This document shows, piece by piece, positions 1,575 to 20,831 of a stretch of 64,000 nt of DNA. The notes beneath the pieces were generated by a model. The model was not told where the DNA came from. It did no database searches and saw only the letters and a program-made list of their open reading frames with translations. The DNA comes from Bacteroidaceae bacterium (GTDB lineage: Bacteria > Bacteroidota > Bacteroidia > Bacteroidales > Bacteroidaceae): contig JAGCVH010000009.1 of the NCBI GenBank assembly GCA_017962495.1, positions 1 to 64,000 of the forward strand, read 5' to 3'. Each line of letters begins with the position of its first letter. Position 1 is the first letter of the stretch. Made by a program: the position numbers and the translations under genes.

Positions 1575-2600
1575 ATGAATTGGAGGAAAAAAATCAGAAA
1601 TAAAAGATTATGGAATCCGTTTCAAAAAAATGGGGAACATCGAATTACGTTTGAGAAAGAAGGTTTTGTTTCTCATCTCTTGAACGATAACAAAAATGAG
1701 AATCAAAATTCTCAATTACTCCCAGCCTCTATAGCAATTATATATAAGAGTGAACTTGATTATATATCGCGTTGTATATTGGATTATACCAATATCGAGA
1801 CGGGAGGTCAATTGTTTGGATATTGGACGGCTGAAGATGTTCCTGTGGTTCTATATGCTATTGGTCCTGGCCCTCGAGCCAATCATCAGGTCGCCTTTTT
1901 CAATCAGGATATTGACTATCTAATTCATGTTGGCAGGCCAATTGTTGAACATTTTGGACTTCAGCATATTGGCGAGTGGCATTCTCATCACCAATTAGGC
2001 TTAGCACAGCCAAGTTCGCACGACGCAAATACAATGATGTCAACTATTCAGGAGAAGCATTTGGGAAAGTTTTTACTATGTATTGGTAATTGTACAAATA
2101 CGAGCAGCACATTAAACGCCTTCAATTTTTCGGAGTTCAATCAGAATTATGTGAAAGCAAAATGGTGCATAAAAGATATAAATAGCCCCTTCCGGGAAAA
2201 AATAGATAACGAATTGGCTCCATTCCTACTGCACCCCAAAACGAAAGTGGGTAATATGGACAATTTATATCTCGTGAATATACAACAGAATCTTCCACCT
2301 GAATATAAAGATTCATATTGGTTTAGCATTAAAGAAAATCGCCAGATACTAAAACAAATAATGGATACATTGGGGCAATGTACGATTCAACAAGATAAGG
2401 ATGGCTTTATATATCTAATAAGGGAATATGGTGATGTAGTTGATACAATCTTTTTTCCTGACGGATTTCCACAGCAAGCCCCACGTGTTATGCGTCCTCA
2501 TACTGATAATTCTATTATAGAATCAAGTGTTTCTTGGAATTATACTGGAGATATCTATAATGATTTTATTAACTATTATAATCAAACTATTGGCCTATGA
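1575..2600 (+). CDS. JAMM/JAB-domain metallopeptidase (deubiquitinase-like) with C-terminal E2-fold-like region
   Basis: The protein has about 341 residues. The JAB/MPN zinc-peptidase signature is complete: the glutamate of ETGGQLFG (about E75), then HSH (136-138) and S-x-x-D (S147, D150) in EWHSHH...PSSHD. The spacing HSHx8SxxD is one residue longer than in Rpn11. This family removes ubiquitin-like modifiers or trims their C-termini. Residues about 245-341 contain a segment, FFPDGFPQQAPRV, that resembles the strand and 'FP-P-PP-V' signature of UBC/RWD folds, without an evident catalytic cysteine; that is inference. I chose the ATG at 1575 over the in-frame ATG at 1515, because the latter would lie in the terminator of the upstream RNA. 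The stop overlaps the next start (ATGA), so translation is probably coupled. Confidence 0.82.
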   Translation: MNWRKKIRNKRLWNPFQKNGEHRITFEKEGFVSHLLNDNKNENQNSQLLPASIAIIYKSELDYISRCILDYTNIETGGQLFGYWTAEDVPVVLYAIGPGPRANHQVAFFNQDIDYLIHVGRPIVEHFGLQHIGEWHSHHQLGLAQPSSHDANTMMSTIQEKHLGKFLLCIGNCTNTSSTLNAFNFSEFNQNYVKAKWCIKDINSPFREKIDNELAPFLLHPKTKVGNMDNLYLVNIQQNLPPEYKDSYWFSIKENRQILKQIMDTLGQCTIQQDKDGFIYLIREYGDVVDTIFFPDGFPQQAPRVMRPHTDNSIIESSVSWNYTGDIYNDFINYYNQTIGL

Positions 2601-3025
2601 TGACACCAGAGAGATTACAAGCAGAAAAGGATGTTTTGAAAAGGAAATTACCTTGTTACGATTATCGTTTCTTAGATATGGAAACTTCCAAACCTTACAT
2701 TGTTTTGCCCGCCAAAACAAACAGGGGTAACATTTATACAATTAGAATAGAATTAGATGAGTTTCCCAATGAGATACCTAAAGCATTTGTGACAAAGATG
2801 CTAAAAACAAAGTTGGGAAAAGAAATGAATGATTGTAGTGCCTCAATGCATACCCTAACAAGTGAACATGGCTACACAAGAATATGCCATTATGGATATA
2901 GCTCTTGGACACCAATGGTTTCTCTGTATAAAATATATGTGAAATGTCGTCTTTGGTTAGAGATGTATGAACTCCATTTACAAACAGGACATAATATGGA
3001 TTACTATTTAAACCATCAAGAATAA
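2597..3025 (+). CDS. E2 (ubiquitin-conjugating)-like protein
   Basis: A 142-residue protein with the layout of a prokaryotic E2. An N-terminal helix (ERLQAEKDVLKRKL) is followed by strands and a proline-bearing FPNEIPKAFV segment comparable with the 'FP-P-PP' strand. Then come H85, the presumed catalytic C97 in GYTRICHYG, and W104-T-P106, which correspond to the canonical HPN...GxICL...WSP signature. A C-terminal helical region follows. Such proteins receive an activated modifier from an E1 and pass it to a target. It overlaps the JAB gene by 4 bases and lies upstream of an E1-like gene, which strongly supports the assignment. Two adjacent ATG codons (2597, 2600) are possible starts. I did not see a zinc or RING domain. 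Confidence 0.78.
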   Translation: MMTPERLQAEKDVLKRKLPCYDYRFLDMETSKPYIVLPAKTNRGNIYTIRIELDEFPNEIPKAFVTKMLKTKLGKEMNDCSASMHTLTSEHGYTRICHYGYSSWTPMVSLYKIYVKCRLWLEMYELHLQTGHNMDYYLNHQE

Positions 3026-3026
3026 T

Positions 3027-3200
3027 ATGGACTGCATAAAAGATTCCTTGGAAAAAAAGGGGTTACAGAAAGAAGAACTACTACTCTTTAATCCCAAAGC
3101 GCCCCAAATATATTTTAACCCAGTAACAGGCGAATTCGAGCAGATAGCAAAAGAGCTGACTCATGAAGGAGTTGTTGTTACTGAATTGACAATGAATTAA
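3027..3200 (+). CDS. 57-aa tag-motif peptide, paralogue 1
   Basis: The ATG at 3027 opens just after the E2 stop codon. The product is acidic and probably unstructured. Its second half holds FNPVTGEFE (residues 30-38), and the 26 residues from there match the next small gene at 19 positions. No glycine-glycine tail, Cys pair or membrane segment is present, so it is not an obvious ubiquitin-like modifier. Its position between E2 and E1 genes suggests a substrate, modifier or adaptor of the conjugation machinery, but this is inference. The same motif occurs at the N-termini of the proteins encoded at 7301 and 7768. Confidence 0.72.
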   Translation: MDCIKDSLEKKGLQKEELLLFNPKAPQIYFNPVTGEFEQIAKELTHEGVVVTELTMN

Positions 3201-3244
3201 TAAAAACGAAAAGTCAAAAGTGGATTTTAAATATATCATATGTT

Positions 3245-3424
3245 ATGAACGAACAAGAATTAGAAAGATTTGGCCAACAAATCAAAAGACAGGGAGAAAA
3301 TCAGGGTGGCACAATGACTCAGTTAGTATATAATCCCGTAACAGGCGAATTCGAGCAGGTAGCCAAAGGGCAGGCTCATGAAGGAGATGTTGTTACTGAA
3401 ATGACGGAAAAAGGTTTTGCTTAA
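3245..3424 (+). CDS. 59-aa tag-motif peptide, paralogue 2
   Basis: The product begins MNEQELERFGQQIKRQG and carries YNPVTGEFE at residues 29-37, followed by a stretch nearly identical to paralogue 1. The DNA of the two shared segments is almost identical too, so they look like a fairly recent tandem duplication whose N-termini differ. An internal ATG directly before the motif (codon 24) could also initiate. It ends 5 bases before the E1-like gene and should be co-translated with it. No known domain; the function is unknown. Confidence 0.72.
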   Translation: MNEQELERFGQQIKRQGENQGGTMTQLVYNPVTGEFEQVAKGQAHEGDVVTEMTEKGFA

Positions 3425-3429
3425 GTATC

Positions 3430-4701
3430 ATGGAAGAACTACCTATTATTTACATTGATAAGGAGGAACTGAAAGAGTTCTGTTCACAGGATTTATCTGA
3501 AAAAGAGGGCATCTCCTATGAGTGGGAAAAAGAGCAGGTTGTTCATATAAAGTTGAATCCGAGCCTGCATTCCTTTGGCAGAATTGGTAAAGTCGCATTT
3601 CAGAGGGGAGATTTTCCGTTCCCCTATGGGCAAAGTGTACCTTGGATAAAAGATGAATTTTCCTATATTGTTTATGTCCTCGATGAAAATACGGCCAGAG
3701 TATTTGAAGTTGTGGAAGGAAGACTAATAGAGAAAAAATTATATTATATTCCGTCGAAGGATGATTTATATTCTCGGAGTAAGGGTATCCTTGAGGTAAA
3801 CATCTTGGAATCTAAGCGTGTGATGATTGTGGGCTTAGGTAGTTTTGGCTCTCAAATAGCTATAGAACTAGCAAAGGCAGGAGTTGGTAGTTTCTCTTTA
3901 TTTGACTTTGATAGGATAGAATTGCATAATCTTGCCAGACATACTTGTACAATCAAGGACTTAGGCAGATTAAAGACGGATGCTATCTATGACGCTATTG
4001 TAGGAAAGAATCCATACGCACATGTAGATAAGTTTCCAATTGACATCAATAAAAACATACCATTATTAAATGAGGAAATCTCAAAGGCTGACATAGTGAT
4101 TTGTGCTACCGACAACAACAAAAGCAGATTCAATATCTCAGAAGAATTGGTAAAGCAACAGAAGTTAGGAATCTTTGGACGTGCGGTTACGAGGGCTGAA
4201 GGCGGTGACATCTTTAGATATGTGCCAGGTGGACCTTGTTATTGCTGTCTAATTGGCACTGAATGGTATGACACTTCTGCAGAAGAGATAACTAATATAG
4301 GGTCGGGAAGACGAAATGGGCAAATTCCAGCTTATGTTTCAGATGAAGATGCCGATGCCGTAGTGCAAGTTGGCCTTTCATCTGATATTGAGCCCATCTG
4401 TAATTTAATGGTTAAATTGACATTAATGGAACTATCTAGAGGTGAAGACTCCGGCATTTCATGTTTAGAAGATGAATTAGTGTATGATTATTACATGTGG
4501 GCAAACAGACGCGAACGCAGGCATGTCAATTGGGCACCGCTTCCCAATGCTGGGAATAGACCTACGATATTGCGTTGGTATGGAGCTTATATTAAGAAAG
4601 TAGAAGATTGTCCCCTTTGTTCTCATCATATTGTTCTTGATGAGGGAGAAGAATATGAAGCAAAACTTGGCGAAATGACAGACATGAAAGATGTTGATTA
4701 A
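3430..4701 (+). CDS. ThiF/E1-superfamily adenylating enzyme with extra N-terminal domain
   Basis: A 423-residue protein. The first 125 residues or so are a domain I do not recognise. The Rossmann-like E1 core follows: the ATP-binding glycine motif IVGLGSFG (133-140), the acidic DFDRIELHNLAR segment (159-170) typical of this family, and ICATDNN (224-230). Two CxxC pairs (C270/C273 and C394/C397) probably bind the structural zinc seen in MoeB/ThiF proteins. Members adenylate the C-terminus of a ubiquitin-like protein and may form a thioester. The neighbouring E2 and JAB genes point to a conjugation pathway, not thiamine or molybdopterin synthesis. The modifier itself is not obvious in the window. 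Confidence 0.88.
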   Translation: MEELPIIYIDKEELKEFCSQDLSEKEGISYEWEKEQVVHIKLNPSLHSFGRIGKVAFQRGDFPFPYGQSVPWIKDEFSYIVYVLDENTARVFEVVEGRLIEKKLYYIPSKDDLYSRSKGILEVNILESKRVMIVGLGSFGSQIAIELAKAGVGSFSLFDFDRIELHNLARHTCTIKDLGRLKTDAIYDAIVGKNPYAHVDKFPIDINKNIPLLNEEISKADIVICATDNNKSRFNISEELVKQQKLGIFGRAVTRAEGGDIFRYVPGGPCYCCLIGTEWYDTSAEEITNIGSGRRNGQIPAYVSDEDADAVVQVGLSSDIEPICNLMVKLTLMELSRGEDSGISCLEDELVYDYYMWANRRERRHVNWAPLPNAGNRPTILRWYGAYIKKVEDCPLCSHHIVLDEGEEYEAKLGEMTDMKDVD

Positions 4702-4715
4702 TTAAAAGGGAGATA

Positions 4716-7301
4716 ATGGATTACTCAAAATTCACACCTAAGGCGAGGAGCACCATATCACGAGCCTATAGCTTAGCTCAAAGTTGCAGTTATGTAGAAG
4801 TAACTCCTTCCATATTGATGGTTGCGACAATTCAGGAATCGCGAGATATGGTGTTCTTTCTCCTACAACAGATGGAAGTCGATAAAGTGGCCTTTTGTCA
4901 GTCTGTTAGTGAAAAATTAGGAGAAATTGCCCAGCAACAGAATTGTCGGCCAGAGGCTTCCGATACATTATATGATATATTACAGCAATCATTGCTCTTG
5001 TCATCGGAAACAGGAGCAGCATTAACAGGAGTGGAACATTTGTTCTGGGCTTTTGCAAAGGTGGAGAATGAATTATTGGATGTTTTCCGCCAATATGACA
5101 TTAGGGAGGCGCGAATAATAGAGGCTGTTCGTGTCTATCGTAATGGTAATATCGAAAATCAGCAAAGTATTACAGAGCAACAAGATAATTTGAGAACATT
5201 AGGTAAATATGCACGAAATCTGAATACATTAGCTGCAGATGGAAGTATTGAATCTTCTATCGGACGCGACGAGGAAGTTAGAAGAATTTTGCAGATTCTT
5301 TCTCGCAAAACAAAAAACAATCCAATACTTGTTGGCGAACCTGGTACTGGAAAAACCGCAATAGTAGAAGGTCTTGCACACCGTATTGTTAGAGGTGATG
5401 TGCCACAAGATATGCAAGGATTAAAGATATACTCCTTGGATTTATCTTTGCTGATTGCAGGTGCAAGTATGCAGGGAGAATTTGAGGAACGCCTAAAGTC
5501 TGTAATAGAGGAGGTGAAATCAGATAGTAACATTGTGCTATTTATTGATGAAATTCATCTTCTTATCGGTGCAGGTCGCAGTTCTGGTGCCATGGATGCC
5601 GCAAATATTATTAAACCAGAGTTGGCGAGAGGAGAAATAAAAATAATTGGAGCAACGACATTTGATGAATATCGGAAATATGTAGAATCGGACAAAGCCT
5701 TTGCGAGACGTCTTCAAAAGATTATAGTTGATGAGCCAGACGAAGAATCTTCCATAGCAATTATCCGTGGCATCAAGTCGAGATTCGAGACCCATCATCG
5801 GATTAAGATTCTTGACGAATCTGTAGTTTCTGCCGTAAAACTATCTATTAGATATATCACAGATCGTTTTTTGCCGGACAAAGCAATAGATATTCTTGAT
5901 GAGGCTGCTTCGCGAATGCGAATGGAACGGGCTTCTGTTCCTGAGGAACTAGATGATCTTACGCGCACTATTCGATGTAAAGAGATAGAAAGACAATCTA
6001 TCATACAAGATGGTGTTACAAATCCCCAAGCCGTGGAATCTTTGAATCTAGAAATTGCAGAATTGCGAGAGAAAGAGAACACTTTAAATGCCAAATGGCA
6101 AAACGAACGACAACAATTCGAATTGCTTCAGTCTCTTCAGGACAAGTTGGAGAGTTATAAGATTAACAGAGAACAGGAAGAACATATTAACCATTTTGAG
6201 GAGGCGGCAATCCTTCAAAGGCGTATTGAAGACACAAAAAGGCAAATCGATGCATGCTTACAAGAAATCGCAGAAGATGATAATCCGCTGCTAAGGTTGT
6301 CCTTAAACGAAAACGATATAAGAAAAGTCATTACCGCCTGGACGGGTATTCCCGTGGAAACTCTAAAAGAGGATGAAGCCCAACAACTTCTTCTTTTAGA
6401 AAGTAATTTGCAGCGGTCGGTTATTGGGCAAGATGAAGCGGTTCATGCAGTAGCCAATATTGTAAGACGTAATAGAATTGGTTTTGCAGATGCTAATAAG
6501 CCCATAGGCTCTTTTTTATTTTTAGGCACGACTGGTGTTGGAAAAACGGAATTGGCAAAAATGCTGGCTACTTATCTTTTTCATAGTCCTGATATGATGA
6601 TTCGAATTGATATGAGTGAATATCAGCAAGAACATTCCGTATCTCGTTTGTTTGGCGCACCTCCAGGATACGTGGGCTATGATCAAGGAGGCCAGTTGAC
6701 AGAAGCCGTTAGAAGAAAACCATACAGTGTCATACTGCTTGACGAAATAGAGAAGGCTCACCCCAAAGTTTTTGAAACTCTATTGCAAGTTTTGGACGAA
6801 GGAAGAATGACTGATGGTCAAGGACATTTAATAGATTTCAAAAATACAATTGTGATAATGACATCAAACTTAGGTGCAGCACTTATTGCTGAAAATATTG
6901 GGAGAGTTGATTTTATTGAGGTCATACCGACCTTAAAATATCAGATAACCCAAATGATGAAACAGAAAATATCATCCGAGTTTGTAAATAGAATTGATGA
7001 GATTGTTTTGTTTAATCCCCTTTCAGTAGAGGTGATTAAGAACATAGTTTATTTGCAATTAACAAGATTGAAAGAGAAACTTAGGAAGAACGGCATCGAT
7101 ATTTCTTTCGATGATAGTGTGGTAGATTATCTTGTTCAAGTTGGATATGAACCAGAGATGGGAGCAAGACCTGTCAAGAGAGCTATTGACAAGTTTGTTG
7201 TTGACCCACTTACTCAGTCTTTATTAGCAGGTGAGGTATCCAGAGACACTTCTATTAATGTAATATTATATGCTAATAACCTCAAATTTGAAAACAAGTG
7301 A
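4716..7301 (+). CDS. ClpB-like double AAA+ ATPase (Hsp100 paralogue)
   Basis: An 861-residue protein, the length of ClpB. A Clp N-domain covers about 1-145. The first AAA+ module has Walker A GEPGTGKT (207-214) and Walker B LFIDEIH. A middle coiled-coil segment follows (about 410-530). The second module has Walker A GTTGVGKT (about 604-611), the pore loop GYVG and Walker B VILLDEIEKAHP. No IGL/IGF-type ClpP docking loop is evident, so it likely threads or remodels proteins without degrading them. Its N-domain has diverged from housekeeping ClpB. It lies 14 bases after the E1-like gene and overlaps the next gene, so it is part of the accessory run. A ClpV role is less likely because no other type VI secretion gene is nearby. 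Confidence 0.9.
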   Translation: MDYSKFTPKARSTISRAYSLAQSCSYVEVTPSILMVATIQESRDMVFFLLQQMEVDKVAFCQSVSEKLGEIAQQQNCRPEASDTLYDILQQSLLLSSETGAALTGVEHLFWAFAKVENELLDVFRQYDIREARIIEAVRVYRNGNIENQQSITEQQDNLRTLGKYARNLNTLAADGSIESSIGRDEEVRRILQILSRKTKNNPILVGEPGTGKTAIVEGLAHRIVRGDVPQDMQGLKIYSLDLSLLIAGASMQGEFEERLKSVIEEVKSDSNIVLFIDEIHLLIGAGRSSGAMDAANIIKPELARGEIKIIGATTFDEYRKYVESDKAFARRLQKIIVDEPDEESSIAIIRGIKSRFETHHRIKILDESVVSAVKLSIRYITDRFLPDKAIDILDEAASRMRMERASVPEELDDLTRTIRCKEIERQSIIQDGVTNPQAVESLNLEIAELREKENTLNAKWQNERQQFELLQSLQDKLESYKINREQEEHINHFEEAAILQRRIEDTKRQIDACLQEIAEDDNPLLRLSLNENDIRKVITAWTGIPVETLKEDEAQQLLLLESNLQRSVIGQDEAVHAVANIVRRNRIGFADANKPIGSFLFLGTTGVGKTELAKMLATYLFHSPDMMIRIDMSEYQQEHSVSRLFGAPPGYVGYDQGGQLTEAVRRKPYSVILLDEIEKAHPKVFETLLQVLDEGRMTDGQGHLIDFKNTIVIMTSNLGAALIAENIGRVDFIEVIPTLKYQITQMMKQKISSEFVNRIDEIVLFNPLSVEVIKNIVYLQLTRLKEKLRKNGIDISFDDSVVDYLVQVGYEPEMGARPVKRAIDKFVVDPLTQSLLAGEVSRDTSINVILYANNLKFENK

Positions 7302-7738
7302 TGACAAATCTTAGATATAATGAGAAAACCGGAGAATTTGAGGCGATTGAAAACACTTCTATTCAAAAAATAGCTTCATCTCCCATTACAGATGCATCAT
7401 ATTTTTATTTAGAGGGTTACCCTCGTCCTTTTCAATATTCACAATTGAAAAGAATGAATATTCCGTCAAATATTAGAATAAGGAGAATGTTGGAATACAC
7501 ATGGCATAGTCTTGATTATTTTGGACTTACTGGCCTCCTCGATAGAAATAAAAGAAAAGTTGTTGCAAATAAAGCACAGGTAGAGTCTATATTTATGAGT
7601 CAAATTGTAGATTCATCATATTACTATATTGAGGGAAATTCGATTCCATACAGAGGAAATCAAATAAAACAAATGAGGTTAGCAAAAGGTGTTAAAATAA
7701 GAAAAATGCTAACAAATAAATGGAGTGTGGTTATATAA
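7301..7738 (+). CDS. Tag-motif protein with two internal repeats, unknown function
   Basis: A 145-residue protein starting at the ATG that overlaps the Clp stop codon (TGATG). The motif YNEKTGEFE sits at residues 6-14. Two copies of a roughly 43-residue unit follow, at 27-69 and 100-142. Both have the pattern D-(A/S)-SY-(F/Y)-Y-(L/I)-EG, then a basic segment ending (R/K)-(R/K)-ML-x-x-x-W. No signal peptide or membrane helix is seen, so it is expected to be cytoplasmic. The family is not recognised. The shared N-terminal motif and strict coupling to the Clp gene suggest it is a partner or client of that ATPase (inference). Confidence 0.75.
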   Translation: MTNLRYNEKTGEFEAIENTSIQKIASSPITDASYFYLEGYPRPFQYSQLKRMNIPSNIRIRRMLEYTWHSLDYFGLTGLLDRNKRKVVANKAQVESIFMSQIVDSSYYYIEGNSIPYRGNQIKQMRLAKGVKIRKMLTNKWSVVI

Positions 7739-7767
7739 TATAGTTAAAATAATGTATAGTTTGTAAT

Positions 7768-8808
7768 ATGTACTTAGTATATAATGAACAGACTGGTGAT
7801 TTTGAAGAGAAACTATATAAAGACCCGCCAGAGATCACTTTTCAAATAACGAATAGTGGGGAATTTGTGTTTAAGGACGAGGAGGCTCATTTGAAATGGT
7901 CAGTCAAAGATGCCGATTCGCTTACATTAGATGGAATTGAATTGGACATTCAAAATTCCTCACAAGATATCAAATGTGATGAGGTCGGGCGCCGTGAATT
8001 TATCTTGGTTGCCAAAAATCCATGCGGAGAGACAAAAAAATCTTTATCGGTATTTGTTATTGAAAAAACCTATTTTGAGATAAGACTCTCAAAGCCAAAG
8101 CTTAGGAAGGGTAAGAATGAAACATGTGAAGTGGAATGGAATATCCATAATGCGAGCTCTGCAACTCTAATTACAGGTCGTAAAAAGAATGAAATTCCAT
8201 TAAGTGGAACAACAAGCCTTTCTCCTAAAAATACAAAGGTATTGCGTTTTGAAGCGTTGGCAAATGATGGTCAAACAATCTTCTCGGAAGAAATAAAAAT
8301 AGGAGTATATGAAGAGTGCTCTATACAATTATTTAAGGCCGATAAACTCTATGTCTTTCCCCAAATTCCAATTAAGTTATCATGGAATACTAAACACGCA
8401 AAACATGTATGGCTCGGTGACGAGGAAGTAAATGCAAGAGGGAGTAAAAAGATAAAGCAGGATAAGGAAACGATATATGTTCTAAAAGCGGAGGATGAAT
8501 TCGGAATAAAAGAGGAACGTATCTGTGTACAGATGCTTCCCATCCCACAAGTGAAATCCTTGCTTGTTCCTACGCCACAAATTACAAATAACCTATCTGT
8601 GTCCATAAAGCAACCACGATACAATGTAAGTCTTCGGATGCCCAATATTCATGTGATGGGAGTGGATTTGCAATTGCCTCATGTACCATCACTAAAGGAT
8701 AAGGGCTTGATGGTAGATTTGTCCTTACCCGAACTTAAACGGCCAGGCTTACTAAAAGAATTTAAGAGTTTGTTCAGTTATTATTACAATAAGATTAAAC
8801 ACGCATAA
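7768..8808 (+). CDS. Tag-motif protein with three Ig-like domains
   Basis: A 346-residue protein. It begins with YNEQTGDFE (residues 5-13), then has three beta-rich Ig/PKD-like units of about 80 residues. Each has the pattern 'W-(S/N)-x-x-(D/N/K)-A' near its start (LKWSVKDADS, VEWNIHNASS, LSWNTKHAKH), and the first and third end in a 'L-A-x-(N/D)-x-x-G' turn. A proline-rich C-terminal tail with a short basic amphipathic end (FKSLFSYYYNKIK) follows. No signal peptide is visible, which is unusual for Ig-like repeats and suggests an intracellular scaffold. It lies directly before the DUF4407 membrane gene. The domain call rests on pattern recognition only. Confidence 0.72.
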   Translation: MYLVYNEQTGDFEEKLYKDPPEITFQITNSGEFVFKDEEAHLKWSVKDADSLTLDGIELDIQNSSQDIKCDEVGRREFILVAKNPCGETKKSLSVFVIEKTYFEIRLSKPKLRKGKNETCEVEWNIHNASSATLITGRKKNEIPLSGTTSLSPKNTKVLRFEALANDGQTIFSEEIKIGVYEECSIQLFKADKLYVFPQIPIKLSWNTKHAKHVWLGDEEVNARGSKKIKQDKETIYVLKAEDEFGIKEERICVQMLPIPQVKSLLVPTPQITNNLSVSIKQPRYNVSLRMPNIHVMGVDLQLPHVPSLKDKGLMVDLSLPELKRPGLLKEFKSLFSYYYNKIKHA

Positions 8809-8810
8809 AA

Positions 8811-10112
8811 ATGAAAAATACACATGAAACAAATCAGACTTCTATCTTCAAAAATGGAGAAAAAGTAGAGTGGGGAGGTTTCCTTAATGAATTCCTTTGG
8901 ATATGTGCTGGAGTTAACCGTAGAGTCCTTCGCCAATGTCCCACGGACTATGCAAAATATGCAGGTGTAGGTGGAACTATTCTTTTTACTGCAATATTAG
9001 CAAGCATTTCAGGAGGATATGCAATTTATAAAGTATTTGCTGATGAGATTCTAAATAAGGTTACAAATATGTATGAAACAGATACTCATGCAGTCATTAT
9101 TGCGGCAGTATTTGGAGTGATATGGGGCTTGATGATTTTCAATCTTGACCGTTTTATGGTTAATACAATGTATTCAGATGGAACCCATAGAATAACGTCG
9201 GAAGAATGGAAAGGGGCACGTCCCAGATTAGTCCTTGCCGTTTTTATAGGTATCGTTATTTCAACTCCGATAGAACTTAGACTTTTTAAAGATAAAATTG
9301 GTCTTGAAGTTAGAAGTGCTCAGAAAGACGCATTAAGTAAAATGGATGAAAAACAGCAATATATCAAAAAAATGATTTCTAAGTTGGAGGAACAGAAAAG
9401 TGAGAATAACCAAAGAGTTGATGAAAAGAGAGAAGAAAGAGCTAAAATAGAAGATCAAGCATATAAAGAAGCTACGGGAACAGGTGGTAGCGGCAAAGTT
9501 GGCATTGGGATATATACTAAACAATTACAGCAAAGGGCGGAAAACCTCCAAAGAGAGGTTAATCGATTACAAGATGAAGCAGACAGGGCAAATGCTGCAA
9601 TAGATACACAATTGGATAAATATTATAGTCAATTAAATGAGCATACAATAGATGACAATGTTGCAGCGAAATCAATGAAGGGTTTTTGTGCCGAATTGGA
9701 TGCTTTGAATACAATAACTAACCCCTTTACGGATTTTGGTCTATTCTTAGCAAGAATTTTAATTATGTTTTTGTTTGTAGCAATAGAGGTTATTCCTACT
9801 TTATTCAAATTAATGATGATAGATGGGCCATACGATGCGATATTAAAAGCGGAGAAGCATCGAGTACGAGTCCTTTCAGACAAACGAATCTCGGACATCA
9901 ACGATGAGATAAACACCGAAGTACAGATTTCTACAAAGAAAAATCAAGAACGTCTTGAAGCGGAATTACTTGCCAATAAAAAAGTAATGGAACAAATCGC
10001 CACAGCCCAAGCCGAACTCCTGCAAACGGCCATTGAAGCATGGCGCAAAGAAGAACTTGCAAAGATAAAAGATAATCCATCGGAGTATATACAAACAAAT
10101 AATAAGGTATAA
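8811..10112 (+). CDS. DUF4407 membrane protein with coiled coils
   Basis: A 433-residue protein that I recognise as DUF4407 from DYAKYAGVGGTILFTA and WGLMIFNLDRF. Predicted membrane segments lie at about 51-73, 94-112, 139-155 and 303-330. Between the third and fourth is a long charged coiled coil (about 165-285), and a second coiled coil makes up the C-terminus (about 345-430). It is probably an inner-membrane anchor or scaffold. DUF4407 proteins often occur in accessory loci of Bacteroidetes, but their function is unknown to me. Only 2 bases separate it from the Ig-like gene, so the two are expected to work together. Confidence 0.88.
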   Translation: MKNTHETNQTSIFKNGEKVEWGGFLNEFLWICAGVNRRVLRQCPTDYAKYAGVGGTILFTAILASISGGYAIYKVFADEILNKVTNMYETDTHAVIIAAVFGVIWGLMIFNLDRFMVNTMYSDGTHRITSEEWKGARPRLVLAVFIGIVISTPIELRLFKDKIGLEVRSAQKDALSKMDEKQQYIKKMISKLEEQKSENNQRVDEKREERAKIEDQAYKEATGTGGSGKVGIGIYTKQLQQRAENLQREVNRLQDEADRANAAIDTQLDKYYSQLNEHTIDDNVAAKSMKGFCAELDALNTITNPFTDFGLFLARILIMFLFVAIEVIPTLFKLMMIDGPYDAILKAEKHRVRVLSDKRISDINDEINTEVQISTKKNQERLEAELLANKKVMEQIATAQAELLQTAIEAWRKEELAKIKDNPSEYIQTNNKV

Positions 10113-10116
10113 TATA

Positions 10117-10632
10117 ATGAATACACAGCAAAATCATGCATTCTTCTATTCATTAAAAGAGTTTGATATAGGAAGTGTCCTTAAACCGATAAAGCACCTG
10201 TCTGAAGAAGGAACTCAGAAGTCAAAATTGGAAGAAGCCCTAGAGATAACAAGGCTCTGTGAATATAAAACGTATCCATCCAGACTGAGATGTATATTTG
10301 TTGCTTCTACAGAGGAGTCTGCAAACGAATGGTTTAAATCAATAAAAGCCCCATCTCAGAAATTTTCTACATTGGAATATCATTATTACGTATATGAACT
10401 GGTTACTCATGAAAATATCTACTGGTTTAATGCAGATATATTGCACGAGATTGTATACAAATTATATAAAGGGTTAGATGAAATAGCAAAAGACTATTGG
10501 GACTCATGTGTAATAGAGAACCCCAATCATAAAGATTGCAAAATGGAGGGCATCGTTAAGGGAGAAATGGAGATCCTGAAGAAAAAAAGGATGCTGCTTG
10601 ATAAAGACAGAGTCTATAAGGAAATTATATAA
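10117..10632 (+). CDS. DUF2441-like protein, unknown function
   Basis: A 171-residue soluble protein starting MNTQQNHAFFYSLKEFDIG. Its layout resembles DUF2441: an N-terminal F-Y-S/H-L strand, a basic 'P-SR-R-IFVA' segment (YPSRLRCIFVAS), a tyrosine-rich strand (LEYHYYVYEL) and a C-terminal helix with an 'A-x-x-YW' motif (AKDYWDS). The assignment is from memory of the pattern and is only moderate. The gene starts 4 bases after the DUF4407 stop and continues the operon. No signal peptide or membrane segment. Confidence 0.65.
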   Translation: MNTQQNHAFFYSLKEFDIGSVLKPIKHLSEEGTQKSKLEEALEITRLCEYKTYPSRLRCIFVASTEESANEWFKSIKAPSQKFSTLEYHYYVYELVTHENIYWFNADILHEIVYKLYKGLDEIAKDYWDSCVIENPNHKDCKMEGIVKGEMEILKKKRMLLDKDRVYKEII

Positions 10633-10639
10633 TTCAATT

Positions 10640-10810
10640 ATGAAGAAATCAATTCCCGTCCCTGGCCTTTCTTTTTCATGGAAACGAGCACTGGGCATAA
10701 CTAAACTGAAACAAAAGATTAGTCGTGCGACGGGCATCCCCATGTCTAAGGCTGGGGTTGAGAGGAAAATCGGTAGCACGATAATCAAGATAATACAAAA
10801 ACATAAATAA
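10640..10810 (+). CDS. 56-aa basic protein
   Basis: A small lysine- and arginine-rich protein containing SFSWKRALGITKLKQKI and ending in a run of basic residues. It starts 7 bases after the previous stop and ends 7 bases before the next start, so it fits the operon. I have seen similar short 'KRALGI-x-x-x-K-K-I-x-R-x-TGIP' proteins in other bacteria but know no function. Its 5' end is echoed in the intergenic DNA at 12042-12110. Confidence 0.65.
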   Translation: MKKSIPVPGLSFSWKRALGITKLKQKISRATGIPMSKAGVERKIGSTIIKIIQKHK

Positions 10811-10817
10811 CAAATAG

Positions 10818-12038
10818 ATGGAAACAAAGGGCAATGCTTATCAAGAAGAATGGGAGAACACGCTTCGTGGAAGATCGAAGAACGAACTGTTGGAGATTTT
10901 AGAGAAATCGGGACAATATGAAGAAGCATTTATTCATTTGGTAAGTCAGAGACTACATGATGAATTCTCAATCGAGGATTCCGAAATAGAGAATATCCTG
11001 AGAGAGCATAAAGAGCAGAAGAAGGTAGCAATAACAAGTGAATATTTAAGACAGAATACAGGAATTCACGGATGGCTCTCCTTTTTCTTATTCACTATTA
11101 CAATCGGTGGATTATTTTGTGCTATAATTCAATTCGTCCACTTTGACATGCATGAGTTAATCCTATCTGTTGGGGATGTTATATACGGAGTAATTATATT
11201 TGTTTTGTCTATTTACATATTATATGCTTTTTCCTATCGAAAGCCCAATGCCGTTTTCTTGGGAAAGGCATATATTATAACAGTCTTCATTGTTAATCTG
11301 TTGACGGCAATAGGAGGGACGGATGACAAGATACATCCCTACGGTAGTTTAATATGGGGGCCAATATGGTTCTTGTATCTTCAATACTCAGAACAAGTTA
11401 AAGAAGTCATACCAAAAACTTTCAGGAAGATTGGTAAAAGGGATTATTTACTTGTAGGTTCTCTAATTGTAATACCTTTATTGTTCATCATTGTAAGCAT
11501 TATGTTTCCTTCCATTGATACACAATATGAAAATGAGATATCATATACAGCGCAGGATGAAGTTTCACAAACATCATTGGCTGATAACAGATACAAACTA
11601 TCCTCCTTGTCAGAAAATGAGCGAACAGATGAGCGGATAGTATTTGCGATTCCCGATGGTTTTTCTTGTGAGCGGTTAGAAGATTCGGAATCGGGAATGA
11701 TAGTTTATCAGTTAGAAAGCGAAGATAATGCATCAATAAGAATTTGCAGTGGCGTGGATGAAGATAGTAGTGAAAAGAGTTTTGATGATTATGCGTCTAA
11801 TTGGGAAGAAAAAGATCTAAAACCCCATGTACGTAAGCGACTTCCGAACGTACAACATGAGATTCATGATTGGGAATATCGCATTAAGGTAGTAGAATAC
11901 AATGTCAATGGCTCTATTCTGTATTGGCGTTTCATTATGATGTATCATAAATCATTGTCCGTCGTTTGTCTGTTGTCATGCTATGATTATGGACAAGACA
12001 ATTATGTCCATGAGATATTGCACTCTGTTCGGATATAA
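10818..12038 (+). CDS. DUF2569-like multi-pass membrane protein with C-terminal soluble domain
   Basis: A 406-residue protein. Residues 1-75 are charged and helical. About 85-185 hold four hydrophobic segments beginning IHGWLSFFLFTITIGGL, which resembles DUF2569. A further membrane segment lies at about 215-235 (YLLVGSLIVIPLLFIIVSIMF). The remaining 170 residues form a soluble domain with a 'FAIPDGFSCE' start, similar to small domains that follow a single membrane helix in other Bacteroidetes proteins. It appears to be the last gene of the JAB/E2/E1/Clp run. The function is unknown. Confidence 0.7.
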   Translation: METKGNAYQEEWENTLRGRSKNELLEILEKSGQYEEAFIHLVSQRLHDEFSIEDSEIENILREHKEQKKVAITSEYLRQNTGIHGWLSFFLFTITIGGLFCAIIQFVHFDMHELILSVGDVIYGVIIFVLSIYILYAFSYRKPNAVFLGKAYIITVFIVNLLTAIGGTDDKIHPYGSLIWGPIWFLYLQYSEQVKEVIPKTFRKIGKRDYLLVGSLIVIPLLFIIVSIMFPSIDTQYENEISYTAQDEVSQTSLADNRYKLSSLSENERTDERIVFAIPDGFSCERLEDSESGMIVYQLESEDNASIRICSGVDEDSSEKSFDDYASNWEEKDLKPHVRKRLPNVQHEIHDWEYRIKVVEYNVNGSILYWRFIMMYHKSLSVVCLLSCYDYGQDNYVHEILHSVRI

Positions 12039-13148: not shown

Positions 13149-13781
13149 ATGAAAAAATTTTTTACGAGTCGTTATTATCTATTATTACTTGTCAGTTCGT
13201 TATCTTTATTGTCTTGTTCCAACTCTGGTTCTTCTTCATATTCTGAAGGGGAAACAAACGAATATACATGGAGAGAATGCGACAATTGTAATGGGGATGG
13301 ATACATTAGTGAAGTTTGTCCTAAATGTGATGGGCTGGGATATTCATTAAAGAAACATACCGAGGAAGGATATTCATGCCCAACATGTCATGGACAAAGT
13401 CAAAAAATATGTAGCGAATGTAATGGTAATGGATATACCCCCTGCTATAACTGTTCAAACGGCACCGTCCGATGCACCTATTGTTCTGGAAGCGGACGCA
13501 AAACAACATTTGTCATTGATGAATATATCACCACAGAGTGTGTAATGTGTAACGGACGTGGATATCAGACCTGTGGTAAATGTAACGGAGATAGGCGTAT
13601 CTTTTGCAGCAGATGCATGGGTGACGGGCTTGTATCATGTCCGACATGTTATGGTTCTGGTGGAACTAAATATTCAACAGAGGTTATTGATGGCAAGAAG
13701 ACATGTTCTAAATGTGATGGCTCTGGTAGTATAAGATATACATGTCCTGAATGTGATGGTAGAGGTAAAATTAAGCAATAA
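13149..13781 (+). CDS. Lipoprotein with many CxxCxGxG zinc-finger repeats (DnaJ-type)
   Basis: A 210-residue protein. A signal peptide ends in the lipobox LLSC (C23), so it should be lipid-anchored outside the inner membrane. The rest consists of about nine CxxC units, mostly CxxCxGxG, as in the central zinc domain of DnaJ. There is no J domain and no C-terminal substrate domain. Such a cysteine-rich protein in the envelope is unusual, since DnaJ zinc fingers are cytoplasmic. Zinc or heme binding, or redox activity, is possible. It has its own promoter box and is followed by a tiny hydrophobic ORF. Confidence 0.8.
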   Translation: MKKFFTSRYYLLLLVSSLSLLSCSNSGSSSYSEGETNEYTWRECDNCNGDGYISEVCPKCDGLGYSLKKHTEEGYSCPTCHGQSQKICSECNGNGYTPCYNCSNGTVRCTYCSGSGRKTTFVIDEYITTECVMCNGRGYQTCGKCNGDRRIFCSRCMGDGLVSCPTCYGSGGTKYSTEVIDGKKTCSKCDGSGSIRYTCPECDGRGKIKQ

Positions 13782-15975: not shown

Positions 15976-16520
15976 ATGTTAAAAACAACTTATTACAAGA
16001 AACCGATGTCCGTAGTCAGATATGACGAAAATGGATAGAAGTATTTAGAACTTTTGCCAACTACTGTAGAAGGGAATAGAGCATATACAGATTATGGTGA
16101 ATTGCAAATAATAAAGGAGAAAAAGGAAAAGTTGTTGAAAGTATGGTTGGAGAAAAAGATAAAATATATGAACTTAAACCATATGAAGGAAATATTAAAC
16201 CGACTCCTTTAGATTATAGATTGCCTGATAGAGAAGTTGGTTAGGATATTAATAATAAAACAGGGGATTACTTAGGTAGCCCTCTTGGAAGTGGAACTAT
16301 TAATATTCCTAAAATTTATACTTCTGAGCCAGGAAATACAGGAACTCCAAGTAGATGGCAAGTACATGGTTTTACAAACAAGGTAAAAGTTCTTCGTGGC
16401 AACAATGGTAATTTTGATATGACAAATCCAAATATATATAAAGTATTAATTCCAACGATTAGTGCAGGAATTGTAGCAAAGAAAGTAGCAGATAACTCAA
16501 ATGATAAACAATATGACTAA
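15976..16520 (+). pseudogene. Decayed polymorphic-toxin C-terminus
   Basis: Two frames together read as one protein with several lesions. The first piece (from 15976) contains VVRYDENG, a TAG, then KYLELLPTTVEGNRAYTDYG. After a frameshift near 16110 the second contains LDYRLPDREVG, a TAG (16242-16244), then NNKTGDYLGSPLGSG, NIPKIYTSEPGNTGTPSRW and HGFTNKVKVLRGNNGNFDM. It ends at 16520, overlapping the start of the next gene by 20 bases. The toxin-before-immunity order and the 'PIGSG-F-IPK-Y-...-PSRW' pattern suggest a secreted effector's C-terminal domain. The enzyme activity cannot be read. The preceding 200 bases (15771-15975) carry more fragmentary coding text and nothing intact. Confidence 0.55.
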
Positions 16521-17295
16521 AGAAGAATATAATGCTCACATTGAAATGATCATCATGTATTTATGTTGTGAAACTTTTCCTTTAAATGGGAAAGATGTAA
16601 CAGATCATGATGTTGCTGGACATTTTCCATTATTAATAGGCACCCCATGTACAGAAAATATGTCAGATCATATCCTTATTACTAAGGAAATGGTATCAGA
16701 CATATTTAGTGGGATACGTGATCCATATATAAGAAATTGTAACGTCATTCTTAATAAAAAGTTAAATTATAAAGAACACTCCATATTCCTTTTAAAGGAG
16801 CATTTTAAAACGATCCTTAAATATAGTAATTCTGATGAATGTAAGGTACTTGCTAACAAAGTACTAAAAAAGTTAGATCCAGATTTTATTGATGAAGAAG
16901 GAATTAAGAAGTTATATAGATTTCTTGAAGCACAAGAAGGAAAAAGTTTAGAAGGAAATACTACATATGAACAAGCTTTGAATGAAATTAAAAACGGATT
17001 GAAATTTCACTGTTGGATTCGTTATATTTTTCCACAAATGCGAGGATTGGGACAGAGTAAAGTGACGAAATTTTATGAAATTAACGGTCGTTATGAAGCA
17101 GAGCTTTACATCAATCACCCAGTACTTCGTGAACGACTCATAGAAGCTACGCGAGCCATTCTTGAGAGTGATAAGACGGTGTATGAAATCTTTGGCGACG
17201 ACACCATGAAAGTCCGAGCATGTATGCTCCTCTTTTCGTCAGTTTCTGATATACCGGAGTTTAAGAAATTGAAGAACAAATATTGTTGGAAATAA
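16501..17295 (+). CDS. Protein with C-terminal DUF1810 domain
   Basis: A 264-residue protein. Residues 1-135 are a helical region I do not recognise. About 138-260 form a DUF1810 domain: LYRFLEAQEG, then CWIRYIFPQMRGLGQS, then INHPVLRERLIEA. DUF1810 is a small helical fold of unknown biochemistry, often found near ADP-ribose-linked domains. The first codons overlap the end of the toxin relic, so this may be its immunity gene. An alternative start is the ATG at 16513. The N-terminal half is very AT-rich, while the C-terminal half matches the neighbouring DUF1810, which suggests a fusion. Confidence 0.72.
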   Translation: MINNMTKEEYNAHIEMIIMYLCCETFPLNGKDVTDHDVAGHFPLLIGTPCTENMSDHILITKEMVSDIFSGIRDPYIRNCNVILNKKLNYKEHSIFLLKEHFKTILKYSNSDECKVLANKVLKKLDPDFIDEEGIKKLYRFLEAQEGKSLEGNTTYEQALNEIKNGLKFHCWIRYIFPQMRGLGQSKVTKFYEINGRYEAELYINHPVLRERLIEATRAILESDKTVYEIFGDDTMKVRACMLLFSSVSDIPEFKKLKNKYCWK

Positions 17296-17301
17296 AATAA
17301 C

Positions 17302-17628
17302 ATGGAATTAACTTTTGAAAAATGGGAGAACGGACAATGGTTTGTTGTTTTACCTGAATATGACGGAGACCAAGAAGACCTCGAAATGGTTGATGGAGCG
17401 GATAATCTACTTGATTTCCTAACAACTGATGGACTATACGTTACAGCAGATGTCTCTATGGAAGAAGTGACAAATAGTTTTGTGTTAAATTTAGTCGCAC
17501 ACGACGAAATGGGAGGGACCTATCAAATTAAAGAACTTGAAGGATTTAATCAAGATGTTTGGCTATGCAATGTTATTCACTTTTTATTTGGTAAGCATCC
17601 AGAGGTTATCTATTTTAAATTACGATAA
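17302..17628 (+). CDS. DUF6717-family protein, copy 2
   Basis: A 108-residue protein beginning MELTFEKWENGQWFVVLPEY and containing EDLEMVDGADNLLDFL (about 27-42), the hallmark shared with the gene at 15375. It ends with an FGKHPEVIY segment, similar to GRYPKYIII in copy 1. It lies 6 bases after the DUF1810 gene and 3 bases before the macro-like gene, so the three are probably co-transcribed. It may be an immunity protein, with no direct evidence. Confidence 0.7.
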   Translation: MELTFEKWENGQWFVVLPEYDGDQEDLEMVDGADNLLDFLTTDGLYVTADVSMEEVTNSFVLNLVAHDEMGGTYQIKELEGFNQDVWLCNVIHFLFGKHPEVIYFKLR

Positions 17629-17631
17629 GAG

Positions 17632-18687
17632 ATGGAAATACAAATAACTGCGATTAAGTTTGAGACCATCAATGGTAAGAAGATTGGGAAATCGTTTATC
17701 TTTAAGTTGGATCCAAAGAAGATGGCTCAATACAAGACGGAAGCCACCGTCTGCAAGAAGATTGAGGAGTACGTGGCCAAGAGCGGCGTGTTTAGACGCG
17801 ACGAACTGAAAGAACTCAAATACAACATGAAGGATTTCTTGGAGGAGTGGAAGAGACAATTGCCAATAGTCGAAGCCGAAGAATTGGCAAAGCACGAAAC
17901 CTCTCCTAATAATCTTGCCAGTCGTACGACACCAGGGCGAATCACCCGACTCGGAGCAAATGAAGTTTTTGTCTTCGGTTCAAATGAACAGGGACTACAC
18001 TATGGCGGTGCTGCCAAGCAGGCGGTAGAAAGTTTCGGTGCTATTATGGGTCAAGGACATGGGGTGCAAGGAAAGAGTTATGCAATTAACTCAATGAGTG
18101 GTCTTGCAGATATGGCAAAAGAAGTTGAAGCATTCGAAACATATGCAAAGGATCATCCCGAAAAGCGTTTTCTTGTCACACTCATTGGTTGTGGTATTGC
18201 TGGCTACCATCCTACGGACGTCGCACCTCTTTTCGAAGGCTGTCGGGAACTTGACAATGTATGTCTTCCCAATGAGTTTTGGGACATCATAGGAGCACCA
18301 GATGCTAAGAAAACGTACGACTAAGAACGCTTCATCGAGGCACAGGCAAGGGACTATAACACAGCACTTCAAGAACTGACTAATGGACGTAAACGCAGCC
18401 ATTGGATATGGTACATCTTTCCACAGCAGAAAGGACTAGGGTATAGTTACAACTCCAACTATTACGGTCTTGACGGTTTGGACGAAGCCCGAGCATATCT
18501 CGAACACCCCATCCTTGGCGAACGCCTTCGCGAATGTTGCGAGGCTTTGCTTTTGCATAAGAGTAAGGGCATCGAGGATATCATGGGCAGTGGCATAGAC
18601 GTCTTGAAACTTCAGACGAGTATGAATCTCTTCAACCATATTTCAACTAATGATGTTTTTGATAAAGTATTGAAGACTTTCTTCTAA
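17632..18687 (+). pseudogene. A1S_2505/macro-like plus DUF1810 fusion, interrupted by an in-frame TAA
   Basis: The first 230 codons hold an N-terminal helical region and, from about 108, the domain with VFVFGSNEQGLHYGGAAKQA and LVTLIGCGIAGYHP. I know this as the A1S_2505-type domain, which resembles macro/ADP-ribose-binding proteins. A TAA at 18322-18324 stops it after KKTYD. The same frame then continues without a shift through a complete DUF1810 domain, from ERFIEAQARDYNTAL to the stop at 18687. DUF1810 proteins normally begin 'YDLERF', so the TAA most simply replaces a TTA leucine codon. Either this is a nonsense mutant, or the two halves now work separately. The upstream half alone would run 17632-18324. 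Confidence 0.75.
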
Positions 18688-18698
18688 ATAAAACACCT

Positions 18699-19511
18699 AT
18701 GTTATACAACTACAGGCAAATCAATTATGAAGTGATGGCGGACACAATGCGCCGTTGTGAGTCGATACCTGAGTTAACGGAGGCTATTGAGCACTCTATA
18801 GCCAATCAGTTTATGGTGGCAGAGGAAGACAATATCGACCAACCAATGCCCGACAAGGTGACAACAAAGTATAAAGTCTCGGGGAAGCGCAGCTTTGAGG
18901 CAGCAAAGGGATATGCTGGGAAGAAGGTCGCTGTGTTGAACTATGCCAATAATCTCTCCATTGGAGGCGCACCGTTCAGTGCAGGGGCACAAGAGGAGTC
19001 TCTTTGCAGATGCTCAACACTGCTCCCTTGTCTGAATGCGATGAAAGAACCTTTTTATCGAAAGCATCACGACATGTATGTCTCTCATCAGATGGATTTC
19101 ATGGGTAATGACGACCTTATCTACACGCCAGATGTGGTTGTGTTCAAAACGGATTTGCGTACCGACCCCGTTTTTCCGCAAATGATGCCGCGCGAAGAGT
19201 GGTACAAGGTGAACGTCATTACCTGTGCAGCTCCGCAGATGCAAAGATCCGTTGAAATTCCAGACAACTACGAAGCCTGCATTCGTTCACGAATCAAGAA
19301 GATTCTCGATGTGGCGGCAAGAGAAGGAAACGAAGTTGCAATCCTCGGTGCATGGGGATGTGGAGCTTTCAAGAATCCTATTGGAATAGTGGCCAAAATG
19401 TTTGTTGAACTTGTAAAGAACTACAATTTTGAAATTGTAGAATTTGCTCTTGCAACAAGAAATGATGTCAGAAACTCTGCTTTTGCCCGAGCCTTACAAG
19501 GATGTGATTAG
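18699..19511 (+). CDS. TIGR02452-family, poly(ADP-ribose) glycohydrolase-like protein
   Basis: A 270-residue protein. The PARG-type signature is clear: LNYANN followed by GGAPFSAGAQEESLCR (about 88-103), where the QEE glutamates are catalytic in PARG, then CRCSTLLPCL. A further conserved stretch is VAILGAWGCGAFKNP (about 209-223). Related enzymes remove ADP-ribose from proteins or nucleic acids. It is 11 bases downstream of the macro-like/DUF1810 gene. The pairing suggests a cassette that counters ADP-ribosylation, perhaps by the decayed toxin upstream. The GC content is higher than that of its left neighbours. Confidence 0.85.
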   Translation: MLYNYRQINYEVMADTMRRCESIPELTEAIEHSIANQFMVAEEDNIDQPMPDKVTTKYKVSGKRSFEAAKGYAGKKVAVLNYANNLSIGGAPFSAGAQEESLCRCSTLLPCLNAMKEPFYRKHHDMYVSHQMDFMGNDDLIYTPDVVVFKTDLRTDPVFPQMMPREEWYKVNVITCAAPQMQRSVEIPDNYEACIRSRIKKILDVAAREGNEVAILGAWGCGAFKNPIGIVAKMFVELVKNYNFEIVEFALATRNDVRNSAFARALQGCD

Positions 19512-19593
19512 AAATCTAGAGACCATAAATGAATATTATTTTGTAGAAAAATGAAAAATTCCTGATAAATCGACAAAGATAATTCTTGATTAT

Positions 19594-19947
19594 ATGAAAA
19601 GATTAAAATGGACATATTTGGCGTTAATTCCATTTATTTTGTGCGTTTTGTTTTTGCGAGGGTTAGGTAAAGTATGTGGTTTGACATATAAACAGATATC
19701 AGTTATTTTCAATCTATGGATTCAAGGAGCCGTTCTCGTGATTTCTGGTTTGTTTTTGTGGGCTACCATAATATATAGGTATTTTAATAGCAATGACATA
19801 TCATGGATATATGCTGCAATTCTATATTTTCCAATCGCCTATCTCTACGTTTATGGCTTTATAAAGATGTTATGTCACTATCACTTACCCTTTGATCGGG
19901 CTTTCGATCGTTGTGTCATTGATCTAAAGATGTTAGCCCTAAAGTGA
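19594..19947 (+). CDS. Small multi-pass membrane protein
   Basis: A 117-residue protein with three hydrophobic segments (about 8-26, 42-62 and 72-95) and a basic start (MKRLKWTYLAL). No family recognised. Small membrane proteins of this sort are often immunity proteins at the ends of polymorphic-toxin loci, which fits its position as the last gene of the island. The 216 bases after it, before the arginine genes, are AT-rich and contain only a promoter. Confidence 0.6.
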   Translation: MKRLKWTYLALIPFILCVLFLRGLGKVCGLTYKQISVIFNLWIQGAVLVISGLFLWATIIYRYFNSNDISWIYAAILYFPIAYLYVYGFIKMLCHYHLPFDRAFDRCVIDLKMLALK

Positions 19948-20123
19948 CATACAACTTATCAAATTGTAAACCTCATAATATTTGTAATTATCTTTTTACT
20001 TATTCTTTCTTTAAATATTATAATTGGCTACTACATTTTGAATATTACATGAATATCTCATGAATATATATAGTAAAGAAGTAAATATATAGTCAACTAT
20101 TTGCATAAAACGAGAATATTTTA

Positions 20124-20131
20124 TACCTTTG
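20124..20131 (+). promoter_or_regulatory. Promoter of the arginine/proline gene cluster (TACCTTTG)
   Basis: TACCTTTG fits TAnnTTTG, and TTTG at 20100-20103 lies at the right distance for a -33 box. The GNAT start follows 33 bases later. No ArgR-type operator palindrome was recognised. Confidence 0.75.
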
Positions 20132-20163
20132 TGCTGGTATTAGAAAAAAGTGCAAAGGTAAAA

Positions 20164-20781: not shown

Positions 20782-20831
20782 ATCGGATTTCCCGGAATTA
20801 TTCGAAATTACACAGAATTACTCAAATAAAT

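Follow-up and report, generated by a model that had tools for sequence, protein, structure and literature searches.

A recurrent JAB-E2-E1 gene cassette of gut bacteria encodes a small, probably non-beta-grasp protein as candidate ubiquitin-like modifier

What do the enzymes of a ubiquitin-like conjugation cascade transfer if no ubiquitin-like protein is evident beside them? The question is raised by a stretch of 64,000 nucleotides from a Bacteroidaceae bacterium (GenBank assembly GCA_017962495.1, contig JAGCVH010000009.1, positions 1 to 64,000; henceforth the window). At one of its ends lies a run of genes, all on the + strand, which extends from 1575 to 12038 and begins with genes for a JAB/JAMM peptidase and an E2-like enzyme, followed at a short distance by an E1-like enzyme. 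An initial annotation had grouped twelve genes of this run into one candidate system comprising a ubiquitin-like toolkit, a ClpB-like ATPase, an Ig-like protein and a membrane protein. The open reading frame (ORF) list of the window bears out the gene run itself with its mostly few-base gaps or overlaps. The conserved unit, however, turned out to consist of just four genes in the order JAB-E2-tag-E1, where “tag” denotes a small protein encoded between E2 and E1. As judged from sequence comparison, this unit is probably a ubiquitin-like conjugation module built round the small non-beta-grasp tag as modifier and likely serves anti-phage defence.

The gene run is more than a chance assembly as the core order is present in 29 loci, namely the window and 28 others, mostly from gut metagenome-assembled genomes (MAGs). 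These loci, to which the counts given below refer, are the window, L016-L036, L042-L044, L054, L055, L124 and L125, while L053, which represents the same stretch as L024, and the distant loci L037, L056 and L057 were left out. In L021, L025 and L033 the locus end cuts the sequence before JAB so that no JAB gene is found there. Since five pairs are near-copies (L020/L021, L023/L025, L027/L035, L028/L034 and L029/L030), the 29 loci correspond to about 24 independent lineages. An E1 scan of genome contigs yielded 21 loci, nearly all of them from MAGs, whose hosts are, by title, Bacteroidales, Prevotellaceae, Muribaculaceae, Fibrobacter, Kiritimatiellae, Desulfovibrionaceae and Treponema. Profile searches added seven counted loci, from genomes G392, G245, G063, G447, G857, G1123 and G1310. 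Within the order Bacteroidales the cassette occurs in 4 of 393 genomes including the window's own (new: G392, G245, G063). Further genome sets gave 3 positives out of 150 (G447, the genome of L036, and G551, which repeats L024), 4 out of 193 (G857, the genome of L020, and the distant G977 and G993) and 3 out of 395, own genome included (new loci in G1123 and G1310). Two sets of 247 genomes each, one around the Treponema and one around the Desulfovibrionaceae genome, contained no positive besides the respective starting genome, and among 37 same-genus genomes a close E1 is present in the window's own genome only. The cassette is, hence, rare. No E1 relative was found among viral contigs, and plasmids provided distant E1s only, the best one, from Bradyrhizobium, being 33.5% identical.

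In the window, two small genes follow that of the E2, tagA (3027-3200, 57 aa) and tagB (3245-3424, 59 aa). The initial annotation had listed “tag peptides” at this place. Two small proteins are indeed present, yet they belong to one family of which tagA has no tail, and that the candidate modifier sits among them, namely in tagB, had been missed. Stand-alone tags comprise 56-70 aa (75-82 aa in Fibrobacter-group loci, 160 aa in L125) and are made up of a helix-like stretch towards the N-terminus, a subsequent hairpin (LVYNPxTGEFE) and a tail (VVTxMTxxGFA). In tagB, hairpin and tail read LVYNPVTGEFE and, at the C-terminus, VVTEMTEKGFA. In 24 aligned tails the glycine and the subsequent Phe/Tyr are invariant (24/24 each) and the last alanine is present in 23, while the residue after this alanine is variable (2.66 bits, 15 rows). 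The tail was found in 26 of the 29 loci, in the form G-F/Y-A or, in two of them including L124, GFF; that of L125 is GFA. The tag ends exactly at the tail in nine loci and is extended by one residue in eight, by three in L125 and by five in L020, L021 and L044. In another five (L022, L026, L027, L035 and L055) it runs straight into E1. L125 harbours two complete tag units in tandem, connected by a short linker and each ending in IVKDGFA, and in L024, L036 and L054 an additional GFA tail precedes the full unit on its N-terminal side. Ubiquitin-like precursors are built in this way, as extended, fused or tandem units. The conserved C-terminus followed by a variable extension, the fusion to E1 and the tandem units are thus marks of a processed modifier precursor.

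In a test of how specific this tail is, 1786 ATG-started ORFs of at least 50 aa from the cassette loci were inspected. The motif G[FY]A forms the exact end of nine of them, without exception tags; allowing 1-8 residues after G[FY][AF], a less clean test, gave 21 ORFs, 12 tags and 9 others. Codon comparison of five close pairs (54 synonymous versus 17 non-synonymous differences; 8 of each in the L020/L021 pair alone) indicates that the tag is a real gene whose codons are under purifying selection. As a side observation, tagA has the hairpin but no GFA tail; among the 29 loci, only the window was seen to combine a normal tag gene with a second one that is tail-less.

The statement of the initial annotation that no beta-grasp protein is evident still stands. 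By Pfam none of the window proteins scanned matches a ubiquitin-like (Ubl) family, and tagB gave no match in Pfam, NCBIfam or PADLOC. An AlphaFold run on the tag-E1 fusion of L026 (20 rows; best model with a predicted local distance difference test score, pLDDT, of 73) models the tag, at low to middling confidence, as a helix followed by two strands and another, short helix; a beta-grasp is not seen in it. Matches of the tag profile in the PDB, led by the designed, Kelch-type SAKe proteins, which have a similar hairpin, were rejected as homology.

The catalytic equipment of the three enzymes appears complete, in keeping with the ubiquitin-like toolkit initially proposed. The JAB peptidase (1575-2600, 341 aa) matches the PADLOC JAB profile with 1.7e-14 and Pfam Prok-JAB with 3.4e-4, the latter below the family cut-off. 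Its residues E75, H136, S137, H138, S147 and D150 are invariant in 17 of 17 aligned relatives, which thereby all possess the full metal-site set (Glu, HxH, S, D), the spacing before the aspartate being one residue longer than in the usual form. Judged by eye, the C-terminal approximately 150 aa are RWD/E2-like. In the E2-like protein (2597-3025, 142 aa; PADLOC E2 9e-4) H85, C97 and W104 are invariant in 17 of 17 rows and in 21 of 21 of a wider set. Its AlphaFold model reaches a pLDDT of 94.5 and retrieves among its top ten Foldseek matches UbcH8, UbcH7/UBE2L3 and UFC1, together with Fanconi core/FANCL or MavC-complex chains, which we assume to be UBC-like as well. The best E value is 9.1e-3 at a template modelling (TM) score of about 0.5, and no match reaches 0.001. 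The structure prediction called for at the outset places E2 enzymes among the top matches, although with weak E values, and agrees with a UBC fold with catalytic cysteine. The E1-like enzyme (3430-4701, 423 aa; ThiF 7.4e-30) shows invariant adenylation motifs, with GxGxxG, DxDR and two CxxC pairs conserved in 13 of 13 aligned rows. PDB profile and Foldseek searches match it to ThiF, MoeB, MccB, UBA5, Cap2 and BubCD, with MoeB, ThiF, MccB and Cap2 as its PDB relatives. We would like to add that the E1 frame is broken in L028 and L032 and intact in L034, a close relative of L028.

From the gene order, the catalytic residues, the tail and precursor forms and the partner genes, together with the predicted E2 fold, we infer the following course of chemical steps, targeting, docking and response to phage. 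JAB would trim tagB or a precursor, be it extended, E1-fused or tandem, so that it ends in -GFA, whose terminal alanine would be adenylated by E1. The E2 cysteine would then accept the tag, probably by direct transfer from the adenylated form, and hand it to a lysine or another amine of a target; JAB could reverse this conjugation. Partner modules would then act on the tagged product, in the window the ClpB-like unfoldase as well as membrane proteins and proteins with the hairpin, in other loci Leo dynamins or Septu. A hairpin of YNxxTGEFE type, common to tag and partners, may serve as docking element.

One of these partners is the ClpB-like double AAA+ ATPase (4716-7301, 861 aa), the Hsp100 member of the initial annotation, whose gene follows the core in 17 of the 29 loci. 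In L026 it is cut by the contig end and 57% identical over 492 residues. The window protein scores 993 bits against TIGR ClpB (cut-off 1232) and contains two sites each of Walker A and Walker B type; an IGF-type motif did not turn up when residues 600-720 were searched crudely. A tree was calculated for 14 of the 17 cassette ClpBs along with ClpBs encoded elsewhere in the same genomes. In this tree, to which a warning of long branches applies, the cassette ClpBs form one clade (100/100) together with one further copy from the genome of L016. The idea that they are housekeeping copies was therefore rejected, this clade being separate from the other ClpBs of the same genomes. In the window's MAG no second ClpB was seen, only a ClpC-type protein. 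On a contig of L016's genome different from that of the E1 (G433:C182, L100) a partial cassette-type ClpB is encoded. Downstream of the cassette, at 13149-13781, the window harbours a DnaJ CXXCXGXG zinc protein; in L018 (11364-12446) a zinc region of similar kind forms one protein with a Clp_N domain and a transmembrane stretch.

Behind the ClpB-like gene, the window encodes a 146-aa protein (7298-7738) with the N-terminal hairpin motif YNEKTGEFE, a 346-aa protein (7768-8808) likewise with N-terminal hairpin, and a DUF4407 membrane coiled-coil protein (8811-10112; DUF4407 6.2e-70), which confirms the membrane link suspected initially and has relatives in L019 and L023. The label “Ig-like” was given to the 346-aa protein by eye; Pfam does not support it, although proteins of this type do recur in L019, L023 and L125 (the latter with 25% identity, 7e-6). 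Altogether, the tag hairpin or a looser form of it recurs near the N-terminus of 27 proteins encoded downstream in 20 loci. A simple hydropathy count finds transmembrane-like stretches in 17 of the 27, and some of these proteins possess SH3, FGE-sulfatase or helicase domains. Searching nine genomes with the strict hairpin pattern gave 28 matches, 18 of them in cassettes, compared to 4 for the reversed pattern used as control; the ten non-cassette matches were all read and lie at least 81 codons inside unrelated frames. This repeated use, along with the pattern search, suggests that the hairpin is a docking element between tag and partners. ClpB, Ig-type and DUF4407 proteins and the last genes of the run are exchangeable modules: since the genes beyond JAB-E2-tag-E1 vary from locus to locus, a fixed twelve-gene system was rejected.

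The modules found elsewhere are what makes a defence function, initially raised as a possibility, likely. In L019 the DUF4407 gene is followed by genes for LeoBC (3.5e-88) and LeoA (2e-123), L054 encodes LeoC (7e-47), LeoB (4e-242) and LeoA (1e-204), and L024 has three dynamin-like genes. In L124, PtuA (2e-66) and an HNH protein, which together make up Septu, start 20 bases after E1. The distant L037 encodes a cyclase of the cyclic-oligonucleotide-based anti-phage signalling system (CBASS) along with a SAVED nuclease; in the CBASS locus that contains the distant Bradyrhizobium genes, the cyclase is apparently split in two frames and ends in FGA. With Eleos dynamins and Septu as partners and a distant relative situated in CBASS, the cassette likely serves to defend against phage, at the membrane or close to it. 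Beside the two distant E1s, HerA/mad8-like ATPases were noticed in L056 (7020-9824) and L057 (1330-3633).

Several observations weigh against the conjugation module as proposed. The tail is absent from the divergent loci L033, L042 and L043 (E1 45-50% identical) as well as from window tagA and the distant L037 and L056, and two loci have GFF instead of GFA. In the L026 model the tag blocks reach a pLDDT of 52-76, the other four models being lower overall. The E1 lacks a hallmark of ubiquitin-type enzymes, a conserved catalytic cysteine outside the zinc sites, as no cysteine beyond the four of the CxxC pairs is invariant in the 13 rows, from which we infer direct transfer from the adenylate to E2. 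In 12 of the 29 loci, some of them ended early by contig ends, no ClpB gene was found, and DUF4407 occurs in 3 of 29. The run of genes passes the neighbourhood check against chance assembly, a ClpB-like gene following the core in 17 loci and DUF4407 in 3. Concerning defence, the Leo genes of L054 lie 2.9 kb past E1, and the window partners gave no convincing PADLOC match: the hits of the ClpB-like protein to DolB (1.7e-30) and PDC-M37B (1.9e-40) cover its AAA+ domains, and that of DUF4407 to tm_4 is weak (0.0023). Because most loci are MAG contigs, host names may moreover be wrong through misbinning.

The small protein might alternatively be a regulatory or docking subunit of E1 that is never conjugated, with the true modifier encoded elsewhere. 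Its fusion to E1 in 5 of 29 loci, the missing tail in three divergent loci and the Bradyrhizobium CBASS locus, where E1 carries a fused tag-like hairpin without GFA and the CD-NTase ending in FGA is the likely donor, all fit such a role. An E1 subunit would, however, hardly account for conservation that ends at the alanine while the residues beyond vary, nor for tandem units each ending in GFA, and no further small gene was found in the core; we therefore regard this explanation as unlikely. Slightly harder to sustain is a function in proteostasis, in which the tag would mark damaged proteins for the ClpB-like disaggregase independently of phage. The ClpB-like gene in 17 of 29 loci, the Clp_N-transmembrane-DnaJ zinc protein of L018 and the window protein at 13149-13781 agree with it, whereas the patchy occurrence of the cassette, in 3 of the 392 other Bacteroidales genomes, and its alternative partners (Leo dynamins, Septu and CBASS, the last for a distant relative) make it rather improbable. 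That E1 modifies a peptide which becomes a small toxin, as in pathways of ribosomally synthesised and post-translationally modified peptides or microcin C, is suggested by its relation to MccB (4.6e-16; Foldseek match 3h9j), which acts on the peptide MccA, but is highly improbable given the accompanying JAB and E2 with conserved cysteine, the highly conserved peptide end and the failure to recognise an export or immunity gene among the scanned proteins.

Returning to a conjugated tag, we compared the cassette with systems already described. Pup and UBact are attached by a PafA-type ligase and not by E1, E2 and JAB; no match to such a ligase was obtained among 17 window proteins scanned by Pfam. 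Bub is an immune operon with ubiquitin-like parts, and the cassette E1 model matches BubCD at a TM score of about 0.35, by structure only; a PDB title naming a BubA fragment 155-229 implies that BubA is larger than the cassette tag. Eleos (LeoABC) resembles the downstream module of L019 (LeoBC, LeoA) and L054 (all three), while LeoA, LeoB and LeoC were not found among the window proteins scanned. Like the tag, Pup and UBact are short modifiers without a beta-grasp; both are named in PMC11354881. Bil (BilABCD) shares with the cassette a separate and processed modifier besides E1, E2 and JAB (PMC11354881), but BilA has two ubiquitin-like domains whereas in the cassette tag of approximately 56-70 aa no beta-grasp was found; by Pfam none of the window proteins scanned qualifies as BilA. 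In type II CBASS, bacterial cGAS, which has no beta-grasp, is conjugated by Cap2 via a C-terminal glycine or alanine, according to the portion consulted of PMC10097602. This is a precedent for the conjugation of a donor that lacks a beta-grasp and ends in Gly/Ala, and E1, E2 and JAB activities are common to Cap2/Cap3 and the cassette. The CBASS donor is, however, a cGAS-like enzyme, and Cap2 joins E1 and E2. No CD-NTase was found among 10 window proteins scanned, nor by Pfam among 7 more; only the distant L037 has one. The FtsH ternary systems (Kaur 2020) also contain JAB, E1 and E2, and their adaptor domain EAD1, common to Ubl and effector, resembles the sharing of the hairpin in the cassette; they differ by a RING E3, an effector of caspase-like type and a real Ubl that is fused to E2, and the accessible part of the source mentions no small tag (PMC7159879). 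Operon types 6a-6e of Iyer 2006 comprise JAB, E1 and E2 sets as well, yet with fused E1-E2 or a beta-grasp Ubl and, in the accessible sections, neither such a small protein nor ClpB (PMC1779556).

The machinery is shared with type II CBASS, Bil and Bub, while the donor is not theirs. Neither a published description of the cassette nor an earlier-defined system with the same parts was found in open-licence PMC papers, in agreement with the initial suspicion of novelty, and the tag family would be new if the tag proves to be a conjugated modifier. Only tentatively do we consider that it represents a separate modifier class, neither beta-grasp nor Pup: a helix-hairpin-tail peptide of approximately 55-65 aa, served by a full E1-E2-JAB cascade, made from single, E1-fused or tandem precursors, combined with exchangeable defence modules (ClpB, Leo dynamins, Septu), and with copies of its hairpin on membrane and effector proteins acting as a docking code. 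If it is such a class, tagging may bring dynamins and unfoldases together on the membrane, by analogy with ATG8 conjugation, which gathers GTPases in animal cells. It would also imply that E1-E2-JAB chemistry is independent of both the beta-grasp fold and a cyclase donor, a peptide of approximately 60 residues being sufficient, would provide a small, easily made modifier for studying donor choice by ubiquitin-like cascades, and would connect conjugation in bacterial immunity with dynamins and unfoldases.

The window corresponds to contig C64 of an assembly of 2.95 Mb that is 85% complete. The guanine-cytosine (GC) content amounts to 0.35-0.40 at 2-18 kb versus 0.47-0.55 past 20 kb. In a comparison with flanks of up to 1.5 kb from 12 same-genus relatives, similarity to the cassette end of the window ceases at most 14 bases from the stop of the first gene, which is presumably nqrF-like; the single exception, in L138, is a match of 47 bases located further away. 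In addition, L133 and L139 match window genes at 31-36 kb. Low GC content and loss of flank similarity would fit a horizontally acquired insert. Inside the low-GC stretch, at 16501-19511, a DUF1810 protein, an unplaced protein and a microbial-type PARG are encoded.

Three further genes close the run. It is unsure whether the DUF2441-like protein (10117-10632; DUF2441 2e-6) and the membrane protein with four transmembrane-like stretches (10818-12038) belong to the system. Between them lies the ORF of a small basic protein (10598-10810) whose conserved part, 56 aa from 10640 onwards, has no Pfam match and is present in six loci including the window, the five other copies being 60-70% identical. 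Fibrobacter-group loci contain, directly upstream of JAB, a gene for 129-147 aa that looks similar in L024 (7841-8242), L036 (7613-8056) and L054 (14901-15290); a Pfam scan of the L024 and L054 copies gave no match. Finally, downstream of the cassette in L030, a DarT-domain protein is encoded together with a NUDIX/NrtR gene at 18024-20837.

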